From contig JAEPNK010000001.1 of the NCBI GenBank assembly GCA_017643495.1, forward strand, positions 787,623-851,622: a stretch of DNA of 64,000 bases, given 5' to 3'. Shown in pieces: positions 5,471 through 46,849 of this stretch. Below the pieces are notes generated by a model. It was given only the letters and a program-made list of their open reading frames with translations. It did no database searches and was not told where the DNA came from. Source of the DNA: Rhizobiaceae bacterium (GTDB lineage: Bacteria; Pseudomonadota; Alphaproteobacteria; Rhizobiales; Rhizobiaceae). Each line of letters starts with the position of its first letter. Position 1 is the first letter of the stretch. The translations under genes were made by a program, and so were the position numbers.

Positions 5471-6838
5471 ATGACCAAGTTTGCCCTCGCCGGCTCCCGC
5501 TCAAAATCACTTCCTGTATGGCTTCTCGCGCCTGGTGAAATCGCCACTCAAAAAGAGATTGGCGATACGGCAAAGGCCTGGGCCAAGGCTAACGGGTTTG
5601 ACGGGCAGGCAAGCAGGCTTCTTCGTGTTCCCGACAGTGATGGCAATATAGCCGAAATCCTGTTTGGTATTGGCAAGGATCACAGTCCCTTTCATGTAGG
5701 CAAGCTTGCAAATGAGCTTGAAAAGGGGGCTTACCATTTTGCAAATCAGCCCGATGATGCCCACCATGCCTGCCTGGGATGGCTGTTGGGTGCCTATCGG
5801 TTCACGCGTTACAATGACAAGGATCAGTGCGCAGCCAGACTGGTTTTGCCAAAAGGCGTTGACCAGAACAATCTGGAGACCGAGGCAGGGGCCTGCTATC
5901 TCGCGCGTGACCTGATCAATACACCTGCCAATGACATGGGGCCACAGGAGCTTGAAGATGCCGTCAGGAAGCTTGGCCGCGAGCACAAGGCAAGGGTGAC
6001 GGTAATCAAGGGCGACAAGCTGCTTGAGAAAAACTTTCCCATGATCCATGCCGTTGGGCGGGCAAGTGACAATGCTCCACGCCTTATTGATCTCACATGG
6101 GGCAGCAAAGACCATCCCAGGGTAACGCTGGTTGGCAAGGGAGTGATCTTTGATACCGGCGGTCTCAACATCAAGCCGGGCACCAGCATGGCGTTGATGA
6201 AAAAGGACATGGGAGGGGCAGCAAATACCATTGCCCTTGCACAGATGGTGATGATGGCAAAATTGCCGGTCCGCCTGAGACTGCTCGTTCCGGCAGTCGA
6301 AAATGCGATTTCGGGCAATGCGTTTCGCCCCGGTGATATCCTTTCCAGCAGAAAGGGAATGACTGTCGAGATAGGCAATACCGACGCAGAAGGCCGGCTC
6401 ATTCTTGGAGATGCCCTTGCCTATGGCGATGAGGAGAGCCCGGACTTGATGGTCGACATGGCAACACTTACCGGAGCCGCCCGTGTCGCACTGGGACCGG
6501 ATTTGCCACCATTCTATACGCATGATGACGAACTTGCCGATGCTTTGACAGATGCCGGTCAGTCCCGCCATGATCCGCTGTGGCGCATGCCGTTGTGGAA
6601 ACCATACCAGAAAATGCTTTCCTCCCGTGTTGCTGACGTGAACCATATTTCCACCGGCGGATTTGCCGGATCAATAACCGCTGCGCTGTTTCTTTCCCGC
6701 TTTGTGGAGAAGGCAGGCAGTTGGGCACACTTTGATATTTATGGATGGAATCCTTCATCAAAACCATGGTCATCAATCGGCGGGGAAGCACAGGGCATAC
6801 GCGCGCTCCTTGAGGTGCTGACAAAGCGATACGGTTGA
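5471..6838 (+). CDS. M17 family leucyl aminopeptidase
   Basis: A 455-residue cytosolic di-metal aminopeptidase that removes N-terminal residues from peptides. The catalytic signature NTDAEGRL is at residues about 303-310, and the metal/bicarbonate region reads KGVIFDTGGLNIKPG followed by MKKDMGGAA. I use the ATG at 5471 (MTKFALAGS); the frame extends upstream to 5375 but without a good initiation site. It lies divergent from tadD and immediately before the MarR/NlpC pair. As I recall, several rhizobial genomes place these three functions beside the Tad locus. Confidence 0.93.
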   Translation: MTKFALAGSRSKSLPVWLLAPGEIATQKEIGDTAKAWAKANGFDGQASRLLRVPDSDGNIAEILFGIGKDHSPFHVGKLANELEKGAYHFANQPDDAHHACLGWLLGAYRFTRYNDKDQCAARLVLPKGVDQNNLETEAGACYLARDLINTPANDMGPQELEDAVRKLGREHKARVTVIKGDKLLEKNFPMIHAVGRASDNAPRLIDLTWGSKDHPRVTLVGKGVIFDTGGLNIKPGTSMALMKKDMGGAANTIALAQMVMMAKLPVRLRLLVPAVENAISGNAFRPGDILSSRKGMTVEIGNTDAEGRLILGDALAYGDEESPDLMVDMATLTGAARVALGPDLPPFYTHDDELADALTDAGQSRHDPLWRMPLWKPYQKMLSSRVADVNHISTGGFAGSITAALFLSRFVEKAGSWAHFDIYGWNPSSKPWSSIGGEAQGIRALLEVLTKRYG

Positions 6839-22795: not shown

Positions 22796-22892
22796 GGAAG
22801 GCCGGTGATGGACGGGTTCCTTGCCCATCGGGTCAGGTCCGGAAGGAAGCAGCCCAGTCGAGTTTTTCCCGGGTCATCTTTTCCGGTCTTCC
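22796..22892 (+). ncRNA. ffs: Signal recognition particle RNA, small (4.5S) type
   Basis: It contains the conserved SRP domain loop sequence GGTCAGGTCCGGAAGGAAGC followed by AGCCC (about 22840-22855). The ends pair: GGAAGGCCGG at 22796 with CCGGTCTTCC ending at 22892, one mismatch in ten. The 97-nt length fits bacterial 4.5S RNA. It lies just upstream of dnaX, as is usual in alphaproteobacteria. Confidence 0.93.
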
Positions 22893-33840: not shown

Positions 33841-34399
33841 TCAGGCTTCCGGTTTTCAAAAACGCATGAAAGTCCCTCCGGATGATCACGATGTTTCGCT
33901 CGTCGGGCGGGGCAAAGATCGCATGAATGGGCACCCAGTTCTGACGAGACTGGTGTTGCAGCGTTCTGTCAGCATCAAAAGTGAACACCAGGAACATTCG
34001 TTGGATTCAATGGACTTGGTTTCCTGTTCAGGCACTCAGCTCAGACCGAAATGGGCGCCTTCTGCCCTTTCGCGGCAATGCTGCTCACCAGAAATATGAA
34101 GCCTTCCCGGCCCGCCCAGTCCTGTCGCCGGTCGACTCCATCGGATCCAGGATCTGACCCAGCGTCGCGTTCCCAGTAACAGGCCCTGCCATAGGACTCC
34201 ATAAGCCCGAGCAAGTCATGGAGGTGTTCATCCTGTCCGCGTTGCCTGCAAGATCGGGTGCCTTCGATCTCTGGCTACGAATACACTGCAGACAACTTCT
34301 TGAACGCAGATCAGTCACCCGCTGGCCATTGTAGCACTTAACTTGGAAACGCGGCGCGACAGTTTGACTGTCCTGTGAGCAAGTCTATTGATCATTGCA
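33841..34399. other. Gene-poor stretch, possible gene remnants
   Basis: About 560 bp without a convincing gene. On the minus strand two open stretches occur. One of 77 codons (34041-34274) reads HLHDLLGLMESYGRACYWERD then GREGFIFLVSSIAAKGQKAP but lacks a start. A second starts at 33997 with MFLVFTFDADRTLQHQSRQ and runs into the end of the ATPase gene. I do not recognise either family. They may be decayed genes left at the edge of an insertion, or simply chance frames. Confidence 0.3.
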
Positions 34400-34416
34400 A
34401 TGTTATAACATATCAG
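34388..34416 (+). promoter_or_regulatory. Candidate promoter with 12-bp palindrome for the tetrapyrrole operon
   Basis: TTGATC (34388-34393), 17-bp spacer, TATCAG (34411-34416) is a plausible weak sigma-70 promoter 36 bp before the receptor ATG. The spacer contains a perfect palindrome ATGTTATAACAT (34400-34411), well placed for a repressor to block RNA polymerase. The regulator is unknown; iron- or heme-responsive control is the natural guess. I saw no cobalamin riboswitch here. Confidence 0.45.
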
Positions 34417-34452
34417 TATGTTTGCAATTTATCTTGAGTGCTGGAGTCTAGT

Positions 34453-36399
34453 ATGTCGTCACAAAAAATCGTTCTGAGCGGTGTTTCCGCTATTATGCTT
34501 GCCGCCCTGACAAATGGCGATGCTGAAGCGCAGGATAGTCAATCCGAGCCATTTATGCTGGGCACGGTTGTGGTGACTGCCACACAAACTGAACGGGCAC
34601 TGCGCGATACGCCCGCCAGCGTTTCCGTCATCGACGGGCGCGATCTGGAAAAGCGTCCAATCCACGATCTGGGCGATGCGTTGCAGGGCACACCGGGCAT
34701 CACCATCAATAGTGTGGGCACCGGAAACCGGGGTATTTCCGTGCGCGGCATGGGCGCCGATCACACTTTGATTTTGATTGATGGTGGACGTTTTGCAAAT
34801 TCAGCGTCTGCAGTGGCGCACTCCGATTATGAATTGGGCTGGGTTCCGGTCAGCGCGATCGACCGGATCGAAGTGGTTCGCGGCCCGATGTCTTCACTGT
34901 ACGGGTCTGAGGCGCTTGGCGGTGTGGTCAATATCATCACGCGTGAACCAGGGGACGAGTGGCGCAGCTCGGTAACCATAAACGGTGCAATGCCGTCCGG
35001 CGGGCGTGGTGGTGAACAAGGGAGTTTGAGTTTCTATTCCGCCGGACCAATTGTTCCGGGCGTTCTGGGGCTGAGCTTTTGGGCCGAACATCGCCACCGA
35101 GGAGAAATGACTTCGACATTAGACCCGCTCGATTCCTCTTTCGGGGAGGAAAAAGCCAGCATGGCAGGTTTGGGTTTGACCTGGACCCCGGACGACCGGC
35201 AGAAAATCGACCTGACTTTAGGGGCCGGGTATGAGACCCGTTGGCAGAATGTTTCGCCGCGCAGCGGGCCATACCGGACCGACGACACGATCAGGCGCAA
35301 CCGGGTGGTGTTGTCGCATGAGGGCGATTGGGATTGGGCTGTAAGTCGGCTGCGGCTGAACCGCACGGAGTTGAACCGAAAGAACACGCGCACCAACGGA
35401 CGGGCGGTGTCGGGACCGCATAACCTGATTGATACGACCCTCGACGGGCAGTTGGTTTTTGCGCCGCTGGGGATGCATGAACTGACCATCGGCGCTGAAC
35501 TGCGCGAGGAAATCCTGGAAGATCCGACGGTGAACAGGGCCGGAAATGCAAGTCAAATGCATTTTGCGTCCTTTTTTCAGGACGAGATCCGGTTGAGCGG
35601 CCATGTGACGCTAACCCTGGGTGGCCGTCTTGATAATCACGAGGCATTCGGGTGGGAAGTCAGCCCTCGTGCCTATCTGCTCTGGCATGCCAGCGATGTG
35701 CTGACATTCAAGTTGGGTGGCGGCAGGGGGTTTCGCGCACCGACGCTTAAGGAGTTGTCACCGGAATACATGGCGATTGCAGGCGGTGGACGCTTTAGCA
35801 TTACGGGCAATCCCGACGTGAAGCCGGAAACCGCCGTCACGGCTGAGCTGGGTGTCGATTACACTGGGCAGGGATGGCGGCTGGGAGCGACAGTGTTTCA
35901 GAATGAAGTGGAGAATCTGATTCAGGCCAGGTGCATAACAGGTTGTGCAGCACCATTTGGTGCACGCTGGAGCTATCGTAACATCAACAAGGTTCGCATT
36001 CGCGGTGTGGAACTCGATGGGGACGTGACGCTGCATCCCGATCTGGTATTGCGGGCGAACTATTCTTATCTGGATGCGCTTGACCGTACCGCTGATACGC
36101 AGCTGGATAACCGCCCCCGTCATCAAGCCACGGCCGAGTTGGAATGGCAGGTACAGCCGGATTTTTCTGCCACGCTGCGGCTCCAGCACGTGGGCAAGCA
36201 GAACACATCGACAGGCACAGGCGAAGCACCAGCCTATACGATGTCGTCGATCTACGGGGATTATGCATTTAACTCGGCTACCTCGATCCGTTTTGGTGTC
36301 GAAAACCTGGAGGACCACCGACTGGCAAATGATGACCCTGCGTTCGCGCTTGCTGACCCGGGGCGGCGGGTTTTCGTTGCCCTGAGCACCAATTTTTAA
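34453..36399 (+). CDS. TonB-dependent outer-membrane receptor of tetrapyrrole/heme operon
   Basis: A 648-residue receptor. The signal peptide (about residues 1-26, ending DAEAQ) is followed by the TonB box region TVVVTATQTERALRDTPASVSVI, a plug domain (GISVRGMGADHTLILIDGGRF, VVRGPMSSLYGSEALGGVVNI) and a beta-barrel ending in FVALSTNF with the terminal Phe. The FRAP box starts at residue 427 and an NPDVKPE box at 453. These are shared by heme receptors, but the His usually found between them in heme receptors is not present. The start at ATG 34453 follows CTGGAG. It is the first gene of the operon and its stop lies 7 bp before the chelatase start. The substrate (heme, another porphyrin or a corrinoid) is inferred from the next gene. 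Confidence 0.9.
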   Translation: MSSQKIVLSGVSAIMLAALTNGDAEAQDSQSEPFMLGTVVVTATQTERALRDTPASVSVIDGRDLEKRPIHDLGDALQGTPGITINSVGTGNRGISVRGMGADHTLILIDGGRFANSASAVAHSDYELGWVPVSAIDRIEVVRGPMSSLYGSEALGGVVNIITREPGDEWRSSVTINGAMPSGGRGGEQGSLSFYSAGPIVPGVLGLSFWAEHRHRGEMTSTLDPLDSSFGEEKASMAGLGLTWTPDDRQKIDLTLGAGYETRWQNVSPRSGPYRTDDTIRRNRVVLSHEGDWDWAVSRLRLNRTELNRKNTRTNGRAVSGPHNLIDTTLDGQLVFAPLGMHELTIGAELREEILEDPTVNRAGNASQMHFASFFQDEIRLSGHVTLTLGGRLDNHEAFGWEVSPRAYLLWHASDVLTFKLGGGRGFRAPTLKELSPEYMAIAGGGRFSITGNPDVKPETAVTAELGVDYTGQGWRLGATVFQNEVENLIQARCITGCAAPFGARWSYRNINKVRIRGVELDGDVTLHPDLVLRANYSYLDALDRTADTQLDNRPRHQATAELEWQVQPDFSATLRLQHVGKQNTSTGTGEAPAYTMSSIYGDYAFNSATSIRFGVENLEDHRLANDDPAFALADPGRRVFVALSTNF

Positions 36400-36406
36400 G
36401 GTGGAT

Positions 36407-39400
36407 ATGATGCATCGCGTTTTCCCGATATTGTGCCAGTGCGCCCTGCTGTTTTGGACCATATCTGCAGCCATGGGTCAGACACAGGACCAGCTCTCCG
36501 CACCAGAAGGGCCCCTGATCCGGTTTCTTGCATCCGATTTCGTACTGCCGGGGAAATTTCGCGCGCTGAATCCGTTGGCCCGGGCCGAAGGTGTTCGAAT
36601 TGAGGCGGTGACACTCAGGCCCGGACAAACGGATGAGGAGCTTCTGACAGGCGCGGCTCTGGTGGTGATCGATTCGCCACGCCGCAGTGATCGTGCGTTG
36701 GCGGAGGGATTGTTGAACGATCAAGCAACTTCCACCGCACGTCTGATCGTGGGCGGTGGAAGTCCGGCCTGGCAAGGGCTGGACGATCAGGACGCCCGGC
36801 GGCTGATGGGCTGGTATGCGGCGGGCCGGGAAGAGAATTTCCAGCAATTTTTCCGCTATGTTGCCGCGTGGGCGCATCATGCGCCGCGCGATGATTTTCC
36901 CGTTCCGGTGCCATTGCCCGAAACCGGGATCTATCACCCTGATGCGCCGCAGGTTTTTGATACGGTGAAGGCCTATATGGCCTGGTTCAAGGCTCGCGGC
37001 ATCGTAACGGCCGGCGTTGCCGGGCTGGCCATTCATTCCGGCGCGGTTTCGAATTTGCAAAGCGGTATCGTTGATACCACCATTCGTGCCATCGAAGCCG
37101 AGGGGCTTGTTCCGGTCGCCTTCTGGACCAAAAACGAAGCACTACGCGAGCTGGCGCACGAGGCGCAGTTTGATGCGCTGGTGATCCGTACCCATATGCG
37201 GGGTGGTGAAAAATTGGCACGGACTTTTCTGGATATGGACATTCCAGTGATTCAGACCATGGGCTATCGCTCGGGTACACGCGATGACTTCCGTGAGGCG
37301 CAAAGTGGTGTTGCTGCGGGTTCGGCGGCAGTGTTTCTGGCGGGCGCCGAAGTCTGGGGTGCTTCGGATCCCATCGTTTTGATGGCGGTCGAAAAGGGCG
37401 AAGAGGTGATCATCCCTGAACAACTGGCTGCACTGACGGGAAAACTTCGACGCCTCTCGGCCCTGCGCCATACCCCGGCCAAGGACAAGCGGCTGGCAAT
37501 GATGTTCTGGAATTATCCGATGGGGGAAAAGAATCTGTCGGCTTCGAATCTGAACATTCCGCGCAGCATTGAGGAGATCACCCGGCGGCTGAAGGACGGG
37601 GGCTATGATGTGACGCCGCTCGCCGAGAAAGAGATGATCGATGTGGGGCAGGCGATGCTGGCAGGAATCTGGCGCTCCACGCCATTGGAAAACCTGCTTG
37701 GCCGGGACCTGGCCGGCACGCTACCACTGGCTACCTATACCGATTGGTTGAAGTCATTGCCCGACAGTCGCCGGACGGAAATCCATGCCGGGGGTGACCC
37801 GGCAGAGCATTGGGCAGTGCGGGAAGTTGCCGGAGAACGGGTCTTTGTTATTCCACGCGTGAAGATCGGCAAAATGGTAATTCTGCCCCAGATGCCGCGT
37901 GGCACGTCAGGACAAGGACAGTATCATGATACTTCTTCCGCGCCAGATCATCTTTACCTGGCTGCCTATCTCTGGCTGCGGAAGGTGTTTGACGTGGATG
38001 CTATTGTGCACCTGGGTACCCATGGAACCCAGGAATGGTTGCGCGGCAAGGATCGTGGGTTGTGGGCCTTTGATTACCCTGGTCTTGCAGTCGGGGATGT
38101 CCCGGTTTTCTATCCCTATCTTCAGGACAATGTTTCCGAGGCGATCCAGGCCAAGCGTCGGGGGCGGGCGGTGATCGTCAGCCATCAGACCCCGCCGTTT
38201 GCGCCAGCGGGCCTACAGGAGGATTTGCGCGATTTGCACCAACTGATCCATGAATATGCCCAGTTGTCCGAAGGGCAGGTGCAGGATGAGGCCGCGCGCA
38301 ATATCCGCGCAGTGGTGGCGGATAACAGGATCGCAGCGGATATGGGCTGGGACGATGCGCGCATCAAGGACGATTTCTCCGGCTTTATGAGCGCGCTGCA
38401 TGATCATCTGCATTTCCTGGCCGAAAGTGCGGTGCCGCTGGGGCTGCACAGTTTTGGCCGTGCGGCGGATCCTGATCACCGGCTGGTCACGGTTATGCAG
38501 CAGTTGGGGGATCCGTATCTGTCGCGCTTCACAACAGATGGAGAACCATTCAGCGAAGACCCGTCACTTGTTTACGATAGTGCGCCGGTGGCCGAATTGC
38601 GTCGCTGGCTGCGCAAGGGTGCTCCTCCCCCGGAAACCCCGGAGGATGCCGCTCTGTACGCCCGTGCCGCTAGCCTTGATAAGGCGTTGGCCAACCCCGG
38701 CGAGGTTGAAGCCCTGTTGGCCGGGCTCGAGGGCCGGCTAGTGGCCCCGGGATCCGGTGGCGACCCGGTCCGCAATCCTGATGTGCGTGCGGGGCGTAAC
38801 CTCTATGCCTTTGAAGCCGACCGGATCCCGGCGGTCAGTGCCTATGAGGTCGGCCGACAGGCTCTGGACCAGCTGATTGCATCCTATGGCGATACAAATG
38901 ATGGGGCGGTGCCGGAAAAGCTGGCGTTCAGTCTGTGGTCGTCCGAAGCGATCCGTCATCTGGGCGTGACCGAAGCCCAGGTACTGCATGCGCTCGGTCT
39001 GCGCCCGGTCTGGAACAAGGCTGGCCGCGTAACTGCGCTGGAGATCATCAGTGCCCGGGAGTTGGGCCGGCCGCGCATTGATGTGGTGTTATCAGTCACC
39101 AGTGTCTACCGCGACCAGTTCGACAGTTTCATGCGGTTGCTGGACGATGCTATCTTGCGGTTAGGTGATCTGGACGAGCCGGGCAATCTGGTTGCAGCCA
39201 ACAGTCTGCGCATTGCCGAACAATTAATCGCAGGGGGGCTTCCTCCCGATGAGGCCCGCCGTCTGTCGCGCTATCGTATTTTCAGTAATGCACCGGGAAC
39301 GTATCGGTCCGGAGTCAGCGATGTCACACTAGATTCCACCAGCTGGGAGGATGAGACTGTACCGGCAGAAGTTTTCCTGAACGGATCGCAGTACGCCTAT

Positions 39401-40363
39401 GGTGCCCAAGCTTGGGGCGTAGCACCCGACAGTGTCAACCTGTTTGCCGAGCAGCTGCGCGGCAGCGATGCGGTGATCATGTCGCGTTCGTCGAATCTGC
39501 ATGGCGTATTGGGCAGCGATCATCCGTTTGAATTTCTTGGTGGGCTGGCATTGGCGGTCCGGCATTTGGATGGCGAAAGCCCCGGTCTGTTTATTTCAGA
39601 CCTGCGGCGCGGCAGCCCGCGCACCACAACTATGGCCTCCTTCCTGTCGGACGAATTACGGTTGCGCTATCTCAGCCCCCAGTGGATCACTGCCATGCAG
39701 GAAGAAGGGTATGCCGGTACGTTGTCTGCGCTTGAGGGTGTGAACAATTTGTTCGGCTGGCAGGTCACTGCGCCGGACAGTGTACGTGACGACCAGTGGC
39801 AGGCGCTGTTCGAAACCTATGTTAACGACAGTCAGGGGCTGGAACTGGAAGCCTGGTTTGAAACACATAACCCCTCAGCCCAGGCCCAGCTAATCGCACG
39901 CATGGCCGAAGCAGTGCGCAAGAACTATTGGCAGGCCAATAATTCCACGCGTCGCAGAATGGCCGAACGGTGGGTCGAACTGGCGGCAAACCCCGATGTA
40001 CGCGCCGGTGAAGCCGAAGCGACACGGGTGTTTTTGGAGGACATGGCGGCCGGCTTTGGCCTCAGCGCGGCCCCGGCTGCGACTCTGACGCCATCCACGG
40101 TCGCTGCTGCCGAAACCATGTCGCAGCCGGATCGGTCCACCCCGTCCCAGACCAAGGCCGAGAACACCCCCGCCCGCGATCCGCAAACCACGCCGAAGCA
40201 AGTGCGAGGCCCGGTGTTGGAACCTGTTCTTCCTGCCGATCAGGTCGAGGGTATGCACAATATTCGGGCGTTACTTGGTGGGCTGGCGCTTCTGGCATTG
40301 ATCGTCCTGGGCGCCGCACTGCAAATTCGGGCCAACCGTATCACGGGGAGATATAGCGCATGA
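36407..40363 (+). CDS. hmuS: Secreted, membrane-anchored CobN/HmuS-family chelatase
   Basis: A 1318-residue protein of the CobN/magnesium-chelatase H family. The family signature is VHLGTHGTQEWLRGKDRGLW, with His535 and His539 (counting from ATG 36407; ATG 36410 is equally possible). Unlike cytosolic CobN it begins with a Sec signal peptide (about residues 1-25, ending AMG-Q). It ends with a Pro/Thr-rich linker and one membrane segment (about 1288-1308) followed by a short basic tail. This puts the catalytic body in the periplasm. No CobS/CobT or ChlI/ChlD ATPase genes are present. As I recall, HmuS of the Bacteroidota hmu operon has this architecture and removes iron from heme. Function here as heme dechelatase or other tetrapyrrole chelatase is inference. 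It overlaps the next gene by ATGA. Confidence 0.88.
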   Translation: MMHRVFPILCQCALLFWTISAAMGQTQDQLSAPEGPLIRFLASDFVLPGKFRALNPLARAEGVRIEAVTLRPGQTDEELLTGAALVVIDSPRRSDRALAEGLLNDQATSTARLIVGGGSPAWQGLDDQDARRLMGWYAAGREENFQQFFRYVAAWAHHAPRDDFPVPVPLPETGIYHPDAPQVFDTVKAYMAWFKARGIVTAGVAGLAIHSGAVSNLQSGIVDTTIRAIEAEGLVPVAFWTKNEALRELAHEAQFDALVIRTHMRGGEKLARTFLDMDIPVIQTMGYRSGTRDDFREAQSGVAAGSAAVFLAGAEVWGASDPIVLMAVEKGEEVIIPEQLAALTGKLRRLSALRHTPAKDKRLAMMFWNYPMGEKNLSASNLNIPRSIEEITRRLKDGGYDVTPLAEKEMIDVGQAMLAGIWRSTPLENLLGRDLAGTLPLATYTDWLKSLPDSRRTEIHAGGDPAEHWAVREVAGERVFVIPRVKIGKMVILPQMPRGTSGQGQYHDTSSAPDHLYLAAYLWLRKVFDVDAIVHLGTHGTQEWLRGKDRGLWAFDYPGLAVGDVPVFYPYLQDNVSEAIQAKRRGRAVIVSHQTPPFAPAGLQEDLRDLHQLIHEYAQLSEGQVQDEAARNIRAVVADNRIAADMGWDDARIKDDFSGFMSALHDHLHFLAESAVPLGLHSFGRAADPDHRLVTVMQQLGDPYLSRFTTDGEPFSEDPSLVYDSAPVAELRRWLRKGAPPPETPEDAALYARAASLDKALANPGEVEALLAGLEGRLVAPGSGGDPVRNPDVRAGRNLYAFEADRIPAVSAYEVGRQALDQLIASYGDTNDGAVPEKLAFSLWSSEAIRHLGVTEAQVLHALGLRPVWNKAGRVTALEIISARELGRPRIDVVLSVTSVYRDQFDSFMRLLDDAILRLGDLDEPGNLVAANSLRIAEQLIAGGLPPDEARRLSRYRIFSNAPGTYRSGVSDVTLDSTSWEDETVPAEVFLNGSQYAYGAQAWGVAPDSVNLFAEQLRGSDAVIMSRSSNLHGVLGSDHPFEFLGGLALAVRHLDGESPGLFISDLRRGSPRTTTMASFLSDELRLRYLSPQWITAMQEEGYAGTLSALEGVNNLFGWQVTAPDSVRDDQWQALFETYVNDSQGLELEAWFETHNPSAQAQLIARMAEAVRKNYWQANNSTRRRMAERWVELAANPDVRAGEAEATRVFLEDMAAGFGLSAAPAATLTPSTVAAAETMSQPDRSTPSQTKAENTPARDPQTTPKQVRGPVLEPVLPADQVEGMHNIRALLGGLALLALIVLGAALQIRANRITGRYSA

Positions 40364-40824
40364 CCGCGTTCGAAGTTACATTATACGAAATTTCTCGGCT
40401 TTTCCTGTTGCCTGTGCTGACGATGATCCTGCTGTCGTTGGCCTATGGACTCATCGCCTTTGGCATGTTTCTGGCTGAGGCAGTTCAGCGGCGCCGCGCC
40501 ACATGGCGGCCCACTCTTGGCCAAACGGCAGCATCACCGGCAAGCGACGACCTGGAGCTGGAAATTTTACGCCGAACCGAATGGCTGCGCATTGTGTCGC
40601 GAGCGGCGCCAATGCTGGGATTGGTGGCCACAATGATCCCCATGGGTCCAGCCCTTTTGGCGCTGGGGCGCAATGATGCCATAGGGGTGGCGGACAATCT
40701 GGTTGTTGCCTTTTCGGCGGTGATCCTGGCGCTGGTGGCGGCGTCACTGTGCTTTCTGGTGCTGACTGTACGCCGTCGTTGGCTGATGACAGAGTTGCGC
40801 GCTTTTGAACGGGAGTCGCTGTGA
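40360..40824 (+). CDS. MotA/TolQ/ExbB-type proton channel protein (HmuU-like)
   Basis: A 154-residue inner-membrane protein with three membrane segments (about 13-38, 83-102 and 112-136). The block APMLGLVATMIPMGPALLALGRNDAIGVADNLVVAFSAVI corresponds to the ExbB/TolQ core (GLLGTVxGM...). Its ATG overlaps the chelatase stop and its stop overlaps the DUF2149 start, so the three are translationally coupled. ExbB-type proteins turn proton flow into mechanical work on a periplasmic partner. Here the likely partners are the DUF2149 protein and the anchored chelatase. Confidence 0.88.
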   Translation: MTAFEVTLYEISRLFLLPVLTMILLSLAYGLIAFGMFLAEAVQRRRATWRPTLGQTAASPASDDLELEILRRTEWLRIVSRAAPMLGLVATMIPMGPALLALGRNDAIGVADNLVVAFSAVILALVAASLCFLVLTVRRRWLMTELRAFERESL

Positions 40825-41141
40825 TGCGGTTTCTCGAACCTGAAGACGATGATCCGATTCTGTCGGTGGTAAACCTGATTGACCTGTTTCTGGTGGTCAT
40901 CGGAATTCTGATGATCACAATCCTGCAAAACCCGCTAAATCCCTTTGCGGCACAATCCGTCACCGTGGTTGAAAACCCTGGCACTGATGCGATGCGGATC
41001 ACCGTGAAAGAGGGCCACGATCTGCAACGCTATGAGTCCAGCGACGGTATCGGTGAAGGCGAAGGGATCCGCGCCGGGGTTACCTATCGGCTGGATGACG
41101 GGCGCATGATCTATGTGCCGGAAGGGCAGGCCACTCAGTAA
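40824..41141 (+). CDS. DUF2149 protein with ExbD-like membrane segment (HmuV-like)
   Basis: A 105-residue protein. A single N-terminal membrane segment (residues about 14-36) reads LSVVNLIDLFLVVIGILMITIL, with Asp20 placed like the proton-carrying Asp of ExbD/TolR (FIDVxLVLLIIFM). A small periplasmic domain ends in GVTYRLDDGRMIYVPEG, the DUF2149 signature. I start it at ATG 40824, after GGGAG; the GTG at 40821 is also possible. It is coupled to the channel gene and ends the operon. The role as an ExbD analogue is inference from topology and neighbours. Confidence 0.85.
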   Translation: MRFLEPEDDDPILSVVNLIDLFLVVIGILMITILQNPLNPFAAQSVTVVENPGTDAMRITVKEGHDLQRYESSDGIGEGEGIRAGVTYRLDDGRMIYVPEGQATQ

Positions 41142-41321
41142 CCCGATGCCGCTGCAATGGGTTGCAACGTTAATGCGCCGGGTCGCGAGAAAATAGTAAA
41201 TGCCTCGTTTGGTGTATATGTACCAGGCTGTTTTGATATGCTGCATGGTCTACACCCCGCTCGATGTCCGAAAGAAAACCATCGAAAAACAACGGGTTAA
41301 CCTGAGTGTGCTGGGGGTAAA
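41142..41321. other. Gap between tetrapyrrole operon and tRNA-Leu
   Basis: 180 bp between the end of the operon and the 3' end of tRNA-Leu. No gene and no clear terminator hairpin were found. I could not find a copy of the tRNA 3' end on the other side of the operon that would prove site-specific insertion. Confidence 0.4.
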
Positions 41322-41408
41322 TGGTGCCCAGAAGAGGACTCGAACCTCCACGGCCTTGCGGCCACTGCGACCTGAACGCAGCGCGTCTACCAATTCCGCC
41401 ATCTGGGC
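41322..41408 (-). tRNA. tRNA-Leu (anticodon CAG)
   Basis: An 87-nt class II tRNA read on the minus strand. The acceptor GCCCAGA pairs with TCTGGGC, discriminator A and an encoded CCA. The anticodon loop TTCAGGT within the stem TGCG/CGCA gives CAG, which reads CUG. The long variable arm (GGCCGCAAGGCC) and T-loop GGTTCGAGTCC are normal. Its 3' end faces the tetrapyrrole operon. Confidence 0.97.
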
Positions 41409-46772: not shown

Positions 46773-46849
46773 TGGCGCGCTCGGGAAGATTCGAACTCCC
46801 GACCCCTTGATTCGTAGTCAAGTACTCTATCCAGCTGAGCTACGAGCGC
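46773..46849 (-). tRNA. tRNA-Arg (anticodon ACG)
   Basis: A 77-nt tRNA on the minus strand. The acceptor GCGCTCG pairs with CGAGCGC, with discriminator G and encoded CCA. The anticodon loop CTACGAA within CTTGA/TCAAG gives ACG. The D-arm (AGCTCAGCTGGATAGAG) and T-arm (GGGAGTTCGAATCTTCCC) are canonical. Confidence 0.97.

Follow-up and report, generated by a model that had tools for sequence, protein, structure and literature searches.

A four-gene operon in the Rhizobiaceae genome assembly GCA_017643495.1 probably encodes a zinc-scavenging relative of HmuS, the heme-demetallating protein of Bacteroidota, instead of a system for heme or vitamin B12. The operon lies within 64,000 nucleotides of contig JAEPNK010000001.1 (hereafter the window, whose numbering is used throughout) and comprises genes for a TonB-dependent receptor, a chelatase-like protein of the CobN fold, an ExbB/TolQ-like channel subunit and a DUF2149 protein. 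Its link to zinc is strong. The zinc response of a counterpart in Pseudomonas aeruginosa is already known; the breadth of this link and the HmuS-type active site of the chelatase-like protein are added here. We give roughly even chances to the full proposal, a zinc-starvation operon in which a Zur-repressed module imports a zinc chelate and strips the zinc in the periplasm, probably driven by the proton-motive force (PMF). The features on which the argument turns are as follows, where the clade is the group formed by the chelatase-like protein and its orthologs.

34397-34414, no strand: Zur-box-like palindrome GCAATGTTATAACATATC, 38 bases before the receptor ATG
34453-36399, + strand: TonB-dependent receptor, CirA-like (ATG start; Pfam TonB plug and barrel)
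36401-40363, + strand: CobN-fold, HmuS-related chelatase-like protein, predicted periplasmic, 1320 aa (GTG start; Pfam)
36401-36481, + strand: predicted N-terminal signal sequence region of ~27 residues (hydropathy)
37193-37195, + strand: H265, aligned with HmuS H254, a heme site 1 ligand (His in 81/84 clade rows)
38021-38023, + strand: H541, aligned with the catalytic His of HmuS, H538 (84/84 clade rows)
39521-39532, + strand: H1041 to E1044, aligned with HmuS H1209 and E1212 (83/84 each)
40262-40333, + strand: C-terminal membrane anchor (hydropathy; G1304 in 75/75 and Q1308 in 67/75)
40360-40824, + strand: ExbB/TolQ-like proton channel subunit (ATGA overlap with the CobN-like gene; Pfam)
40821-41141, + strand: DUF2149 protein with an ExbD-like membrane segment (GTGA overlap with the ExbB-like gene; Pfam)
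41207-41228, + strand: terminator-like hairpin 3' of the operon (consensus scan only)

A preliminary description of the stretch had placed the four genes and noted the coupling of the last three, and open reading frames (ORFs), ATGA and GTGA overlaps and Pfam matches bear this out; the palindrome and the hairpin go beyond it. Two starts are open to choice, since a GTG at 34438 is also open for the receptor and an ATG at 40824 for the DUF2149 protein.

Zur-like palindromes in this genome and its relatives

Published work describes PA1922-PA1925 of P. aeruginosa as a TonB receptor, a CobN-like, an ExbB/D-like and a DUF2149 gene in the same order; when znuA is mutated, their transcripts rise 147-, 122-, 45- and 56-fold (PMC4542158). 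Gel shifts show that Zur binds the promoter of PA1922 and does so even when metal is absent (PMC8531726), and PA1925 is named as a DUF2149 protein (PMC9431628). A review regards Zur control of PA1922 as seemingly unique to P. aeruginosa among Pseudomonas (PMC10393844); judged from promoter sequences, the wider sample presented below would extend such control beyond P. aeruginosa.

In the genome studied here, the Zur pattern is found with up to two mismatches at four places. One is the operon promoter, another lies between znuA and znuC, with znuB and a Zur-like gene adjacent, a third is at the probable start of aztD, and the fourth, C10:1727445, falls within a coding frame. The aztD site is upstream of the likely start only if a long TTG-started ORF begins later than called; this aztD-like gene, with the palindrome at its likely start, is also read as locus L064 (2920-4344). 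NCBIfam places ZnuA over its cut-off, and Zur, ZnuB, ZnuC and AztD are the best names for the other products, each under its cut-off, with Zur judged on a 120-residue stretch. At up to three mismatches a backward control pattern outnumbers the real one in this genome (35/28 against 23/16 matches), so hits at that level are noise and only sites with at most two mismatches were used. The CobN locus of the same genome carries no Zur-like site.

Relatives were collected by a contig scan with four alphaproteobacterial orthologs, from which the best 80 of 397 were fetched, a choice that favours close relatives. These loci come from alpha-, beta- and gammaproteobacteria and are 44-61% identical; with three further loci and the window they make up 84 operons. 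A receptor ORF lies directly upstream in 80 of them, DUF2149 is found in 77, an ExbB-like gene in 71 and all of these in 67, some contigs ending mid-operon. The system had been presented as lying outside its best-known phylum, which stands, but this is no isolated case given 80 Pseudomonadota loci and a P. aeruginosa counterpart published in 2015.

Receptor promoters, taken as -400 to +150 relative to the called start, were testable in 80 of the 84 operons, L082, L108, L119 and L130 being left out. The core ATGTTATAACAT occurs with at most two mismatches in 56 of these 80 receptor promoters, compared with 17 of 712 other ORFs of the same loci (Fisher p 4e-51, on rows that are not independent). 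Thirty dinucleotide shuffles gave a mean of 0.53 hits per 80 and a maximum of 2, and the reversed motif was found in 0/80 promoters. Sites are fully upstream of the called start in 51/56 and overlap it or lie inside the gene in five; flanks outside the search pattern are conserved as well (G at -3 in 50/56, C at +14 in 34/56). Counted by genus-like units, 40/51 have a site. Among the 84 loci, the profile of a COG0523 GTPase from L059, which is ZigA by NCBIfam (641 vs 600 bits), matches in 14, and DUF1826 occurs in five. Neighbouring ORFs, when clustered, formed five families present in at least five loci, all of a generic kind by eye. The operon is rare in alphaproteobacteria: among 385 sampled genomes, a near full-length ortholog of at least 48% identity is present in this one, G135, G266 and G183, and G127 has an ortholog of 38%. 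This patchy distribution suggests transfer between lineages.

The chelatase-like protein and its partners

Pfam matches CobN-Mg_chel (PF02514) over residues 138-1183 of the chelatase-like protein, above cut-off, with 916.6 bits and profile positions 3-1089 of 1090. The NCBIfam CobN model NF004644 scores 1572.6 bits against a cut-off of 1248; the name attached to it, cobaltochelatase CobN, is probably wrong for this clade, because the evidence assembled here says otherwise. An N-terminal signal and a C-terminal anchor, and with them a periplasmic location, had been put forward earlier and are supported as predictions by hydropathy: among 75 full-length clade proteins, this one included, the N-terminus passes the thresholds in 72 and the C-terminal segment in 66.

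The His pair anticipated for an HmuS-type enzyme is present as H541 and H1041, accompanied by E1044; the bis-His H538/H1209 plus E1212 arrangement of HmuS is thus shared by the window protein and, at 84/84, 83/84 and 83/84 rows, by the clade. The heme-site ligands of HmuS, M79 plus H254, are not reproduced as a pair: M79 is a gap in 84/84 clade rows, and is also missing in one of the three HmuS rows used. The Met-rich insertion is likewise absent, with at most 7 Met per 120 residues compared with 30 in P. nigrescens HmuS, and is also missing in the HmuS rows of a B. finegoldii plasmid (10 Met) and Aureibacter (9 Met).

A careful tree was built from 27 chosen rows, leaving out, among others, the antisense ORF artefacts G_L045, G_L048 and G_L052 and the long rows PL_L149 and B12_Marinobacter. 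In it the clade falls in the HmuS half of the superfamily and CobN in the other; HmuS, which stood nearer to CobN/BchH in a quick tree, lies in this clade's half in the careful one. Four BchH-labelled rows score over cut-off as magnesium chelatase H. An exclusive grouping of the clade with HmuS is rejected (p-AU 0.0004 in the approximately unbiased test), and a grouping of clade, HmuS, Diaphorobacter and Pseudoalteromonas has p-AU 0.036. On this phylogeny the clade belongs to the HmuS half of the superfamily and is not HmuS itself. The relation to the HmuS chelatase fold and to the ExbB/DUF2149 pair of the hmu operon, noticed at the outset, is upheld. A biosynthetic, cytosolic cobaltochelatase is ruled out by the tree, the active-site residues and the signal and anchor; a distinct CobN is encoded elsewhere in the genome, on contig C11, with a cobW-family gene nearby, and CobS on contig C10, ~620 kb from the operon.

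Both the TonB plug and barrel domains are matched in the receptor. Among solved structures the receptor comes nearest to the colicin I receptor CirA (348 bits), followed by enterobactin receptors, with BtuB (98), the heme receptor PhuR (94) and ZnuD (38) lower; the CirA and BtuB models score 374.4 and 200.9 bits, both under their cut-offs (745 and 599.7). The ligand of the receptor is not readable from such a ranking. No His lies between the FRAP-like and NPxL segments in 73/76 receptors. The His pattern of heme receptors is also missing from both receptors examined at the HmuR position (L145 and L146), so its lack does not discriminate with regard to heme. The conserved Cys pair and His columns of the receptor were considered as a metal site; this reading was dropped, as CirA/FepA-type receptors also have residues of this kind.

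The ExbB-like protein matches MotA_ExbB with 27.9 bits (cut-off 22.9), and its core is conserved in the clade. The DUF2149 protein, present in one copy in the whole genome, gives a Pfam match of 91.4 bits and is 34-40% identical to three Bacteroidota copies from hmu-type operons; the Asp of its membrane segment (codon 40881-40883) is kept in 77/77 clade proteins. On sequence grounds DUF2149 was not accepted as a complete ExbD, since only the membrane segment aligns. A stator role of the pair is likely, to judge from these features.

The four operon genes include no AAA+ gene, in agreement with the earlier statement that ATPase genes are lacking, and encode no inner-membrane permease. The receptor and CobN-like genes are separated by 1 nt, and since all four genes abut there is no space between them for HmuY or HmuT, whose absence had also been reported. 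Elsewhere, the window holds a small SRP RNA and two tRNA genes (22799-22892, 41325-41408 and 46776-46849).

DUF2149 modules beyond the clade

DUF2149 was detected in 19 of 397 sampled Pseudomonadota genomes (20 matches); the 20 listed genomes of the same family in that sample all lack it, and 358 further genomes are also without a match. Apart from this genome and G183, 18 further DUF2149 loci were read in stretches of 6-9 kb. One of them, L197, scores like the zinc clade (1860 bits), eight have a lower-scoring CobN-like ORF (556-1362) and nine have only a fragment or no CobN-like ORF within the stretch; a second active-site motif was scored in the nine loci having a CobN-like ORF. On these counts, most of the classifiable DUF2149 modules fall outside the zinc clade. 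The core with at most two mismatches occurs in three of the 18, L197, L196 (just before the receptor ORF) and L203 (within the CobN ORF); setting L197 aside, 15/17 loci have no such core within the 6-9 kb stretch. L195 is a related operon with a DH..E motif and a lower profile score, possibly an intermediate branch. In L196 the Zur-like core (5650-5661, one mismatch) precedes the receptor, and the CobN-like gene seems to come after DUF2149.

Related modules occur in other contexts. On a Runella slithyformis plasmid (L148, 2446-10480), a TonB receptor, an ExbB-like, a DUF2149 and a CobN-like gene lie among hyp hydrogenase genes, a setting hinting at nickel; a membrane protein of this locus has weak DsbD/NicO matches below cut-off. 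On a Trichlorobacter lovleyi plasmid (L147, 1-10465), a DUF2162 transporter, an ExbB-like, a DUF2149 and a CobN-like gene lie near BzaF (5-hydroxybenzimidazole synthase), hinting at corrinoids. HmuY-bearing operons with a related module are found in Bacteroides, Prevotella and Aureibacter. These single cases suggest that different bacteria have adapted the module to different metals.

Proposed mechanism, alternatives and known systems

In zinc-sufficient cells, Zur would very probably bind the palindrome and keep the operon off, as binding and induction are known from P. aeruginosa PA1922-PA1925. When zinc is short, the receptor may well deliver a chelated metal, most likely zinc, to the periplasm. 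The anchored CobN/HmuS-fold protein might then hold the ligand between H541 and H1041 and extract the metal, a step that the shared residues and fold leave evenly balanced. With comparable, middling confidence, the ExbB-like/DUF2149 pair would work on the C-terminal helix of the chelatase, PMF replacing the AAA+ ATPases of CobN/ChlH; PMF as the energy source had been proposed before and is plausible. The released zinc would pass to the ZnuABC/AztD route of the genome. A more specific version, in which the protein uses PMF to strip metal from zinc-loaded tetrapyrroles or comparable zincophores in the periplasm, and is one branch of a metal-tuned module serving heme iron (hmu), nickel (Runella), cobalt/corrinoid (Trichlorobacter) and here zinc, is tentative and rather doubtful as a whole.

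Several points weigh against the zinc-starvation proposal. The substrate is not told by any sequence feature. Among the testable operons, 24/80 lack the core at up to two mismatches, and inspection of these with the four untestable loci left 19 without any site in the locus (of the same 28, seven have a site with at most one mismatch near the operon and two have one more than 3 kb away). No sigma-70-like promoter was found at 34250-34470, that is, beside the Zur-like box, so an overlap of box and promoter is not established. L195 has the same His/Glu motif yet no Zur-like box, and L196, with its different gene order, carries one. The head-neck site differs from that of HmuS because M79 and the Met-rich insertion are absent. 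Profile comparison of DUF2149 with ExbD aligns only 19 membrane columns (probability 26%, E 7e-4). Recombinant HmuS is reported to convert heme into protoporphyrin and iron in vitro in an NADH-dependent manner, so that PMF drive is not required by its chemistry (PMC12583661). In the accessible parts of the literature searched, no report was found of zinc dechelation by a CobN-like protein or by this clade, and none of the literature matches listed covers both PA1923 and HmuS.

Heme or cobalamin had been named as the substrate, a proposal that the Zur-like box, the CirA-like receptor and the missing M79 and Met-rich insertion do not support. An HmuS-type heme demetallase whose zinc control is accidental or due to crosstalk would have in its favour the same gene set minus HmuY/HmuT and the same catalytic residues; it is nevertheless improbable in view of the Zur-like site across many genera (the scan used a Zur-type motif, not Fur or Irr), the loss of M79 and the rejected exclusive clade with HmuS; the receptor His count is a weak argument that does not discriminate. 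A cobalt route, in which a cobalt chelate or corrinoid is taken up and its cobalt removed so that Co(II) can replace zinc in the zinc-starved cell, has more to recommend it and is still unlikely. Cobalt content goes up in P. aeruginosa when znuA is mutated, and the operon may be the reason, according to that study (PMC4542158); cobalt also helps strains unable to import zinc (PMC11481552), CobN relatives insert cobalt, and the Trichlorobacter module lies near a benzimidazole-synthase gene. However, cobalt uptake has been tied to pyochelin with PA2911-2914, without a cobalt rise on znuA loss alone (PMC11481552), the receptor is nearer CirA than BtuB on below-cut-off scores, and the 64,000-nt window contains no cobalamin riboswitch at the Rfam gathering threshold.

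Slightly less probable than the cobalt route is a free-zinc relay, in which zinc ions go through the receptor and the CobN-fold protein serves only as a zinc-binding acceptor or TonB-like energiser and is no enzyme. PA1922 has been described in a Pseudomonas review as probably importing free zinc (PMC10393844), and HmuS holds a cation between the same two histidines, but conservation of the chelatase fold and of the active-site residues goes beyond the needs of a carrier, and ZnuD scores far below CirA and the enterobactin receptors as a relative of the receptor. The forward reaction, insertion of zinc into a periplasmic tetrapyrrole as a store or to make a zincophore, has precedents in metal insertion by CobN and ChlH and in a cheese-rind bacterium that makes zinc coproporphyrin III (PMC6104308); it is very improbable here, since an operon induced by zinc shortage would spend zinc, and an import receptor sits in the same operon. 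If the zinc-starvation proposal is true, zinc chelates are demetallated outside the cytoplasm, and PMF can take over work for which CobN and ChlH use AAA+ ATPases. Proteobacteria short of zinc appear to make a large chelatase-like protein that NCBIfam names CobN; once its HmuS-type site and the Zur link in alpha-, beta- and gammaproteobacteria are considered together, this puzzling name gives way to an idea that can be put to the test.

Among known systems, PA1922-PA1925 resembles the window operon in gene set and order according to the papers, in Zur control and in the response to zinc starvation; the counterpart is assigned by gene order, the Zur site here is known by sequence only, and PA1921, a methyltransferase, is listed with the P. 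aeruginosa cluster. The Bacteroidota hmu operon shares with it the fold, the bis-His/Glu site, H254, a TonB receptor, the ExbB-like and DUF2149 partners and a membrane-anchored chelatase. It differs in M79, the Met-rich insertion, HmuY and HmuT, all wanting in the window operon, and the latter forms a separate clade with a Zur-like box and a chelatase N-terminus that is signal-like, not anchor-like, by eye. CobN and ChlH-BchH have the PF02514 fold and the HxGxHG loop in common with it; CobN rows fall in the other half of the tree and, at the positions of the clade's H and E, carry D and in most cases Q. CobN and ChlH are cytosolic and have AAA+ partners. BtuS, a third CobN-like type, likewise acts outside cobalamin and chlorophyll synthesis, in contrast having been studied for heme iron in Bacteroides fragilis (PMC6460266).

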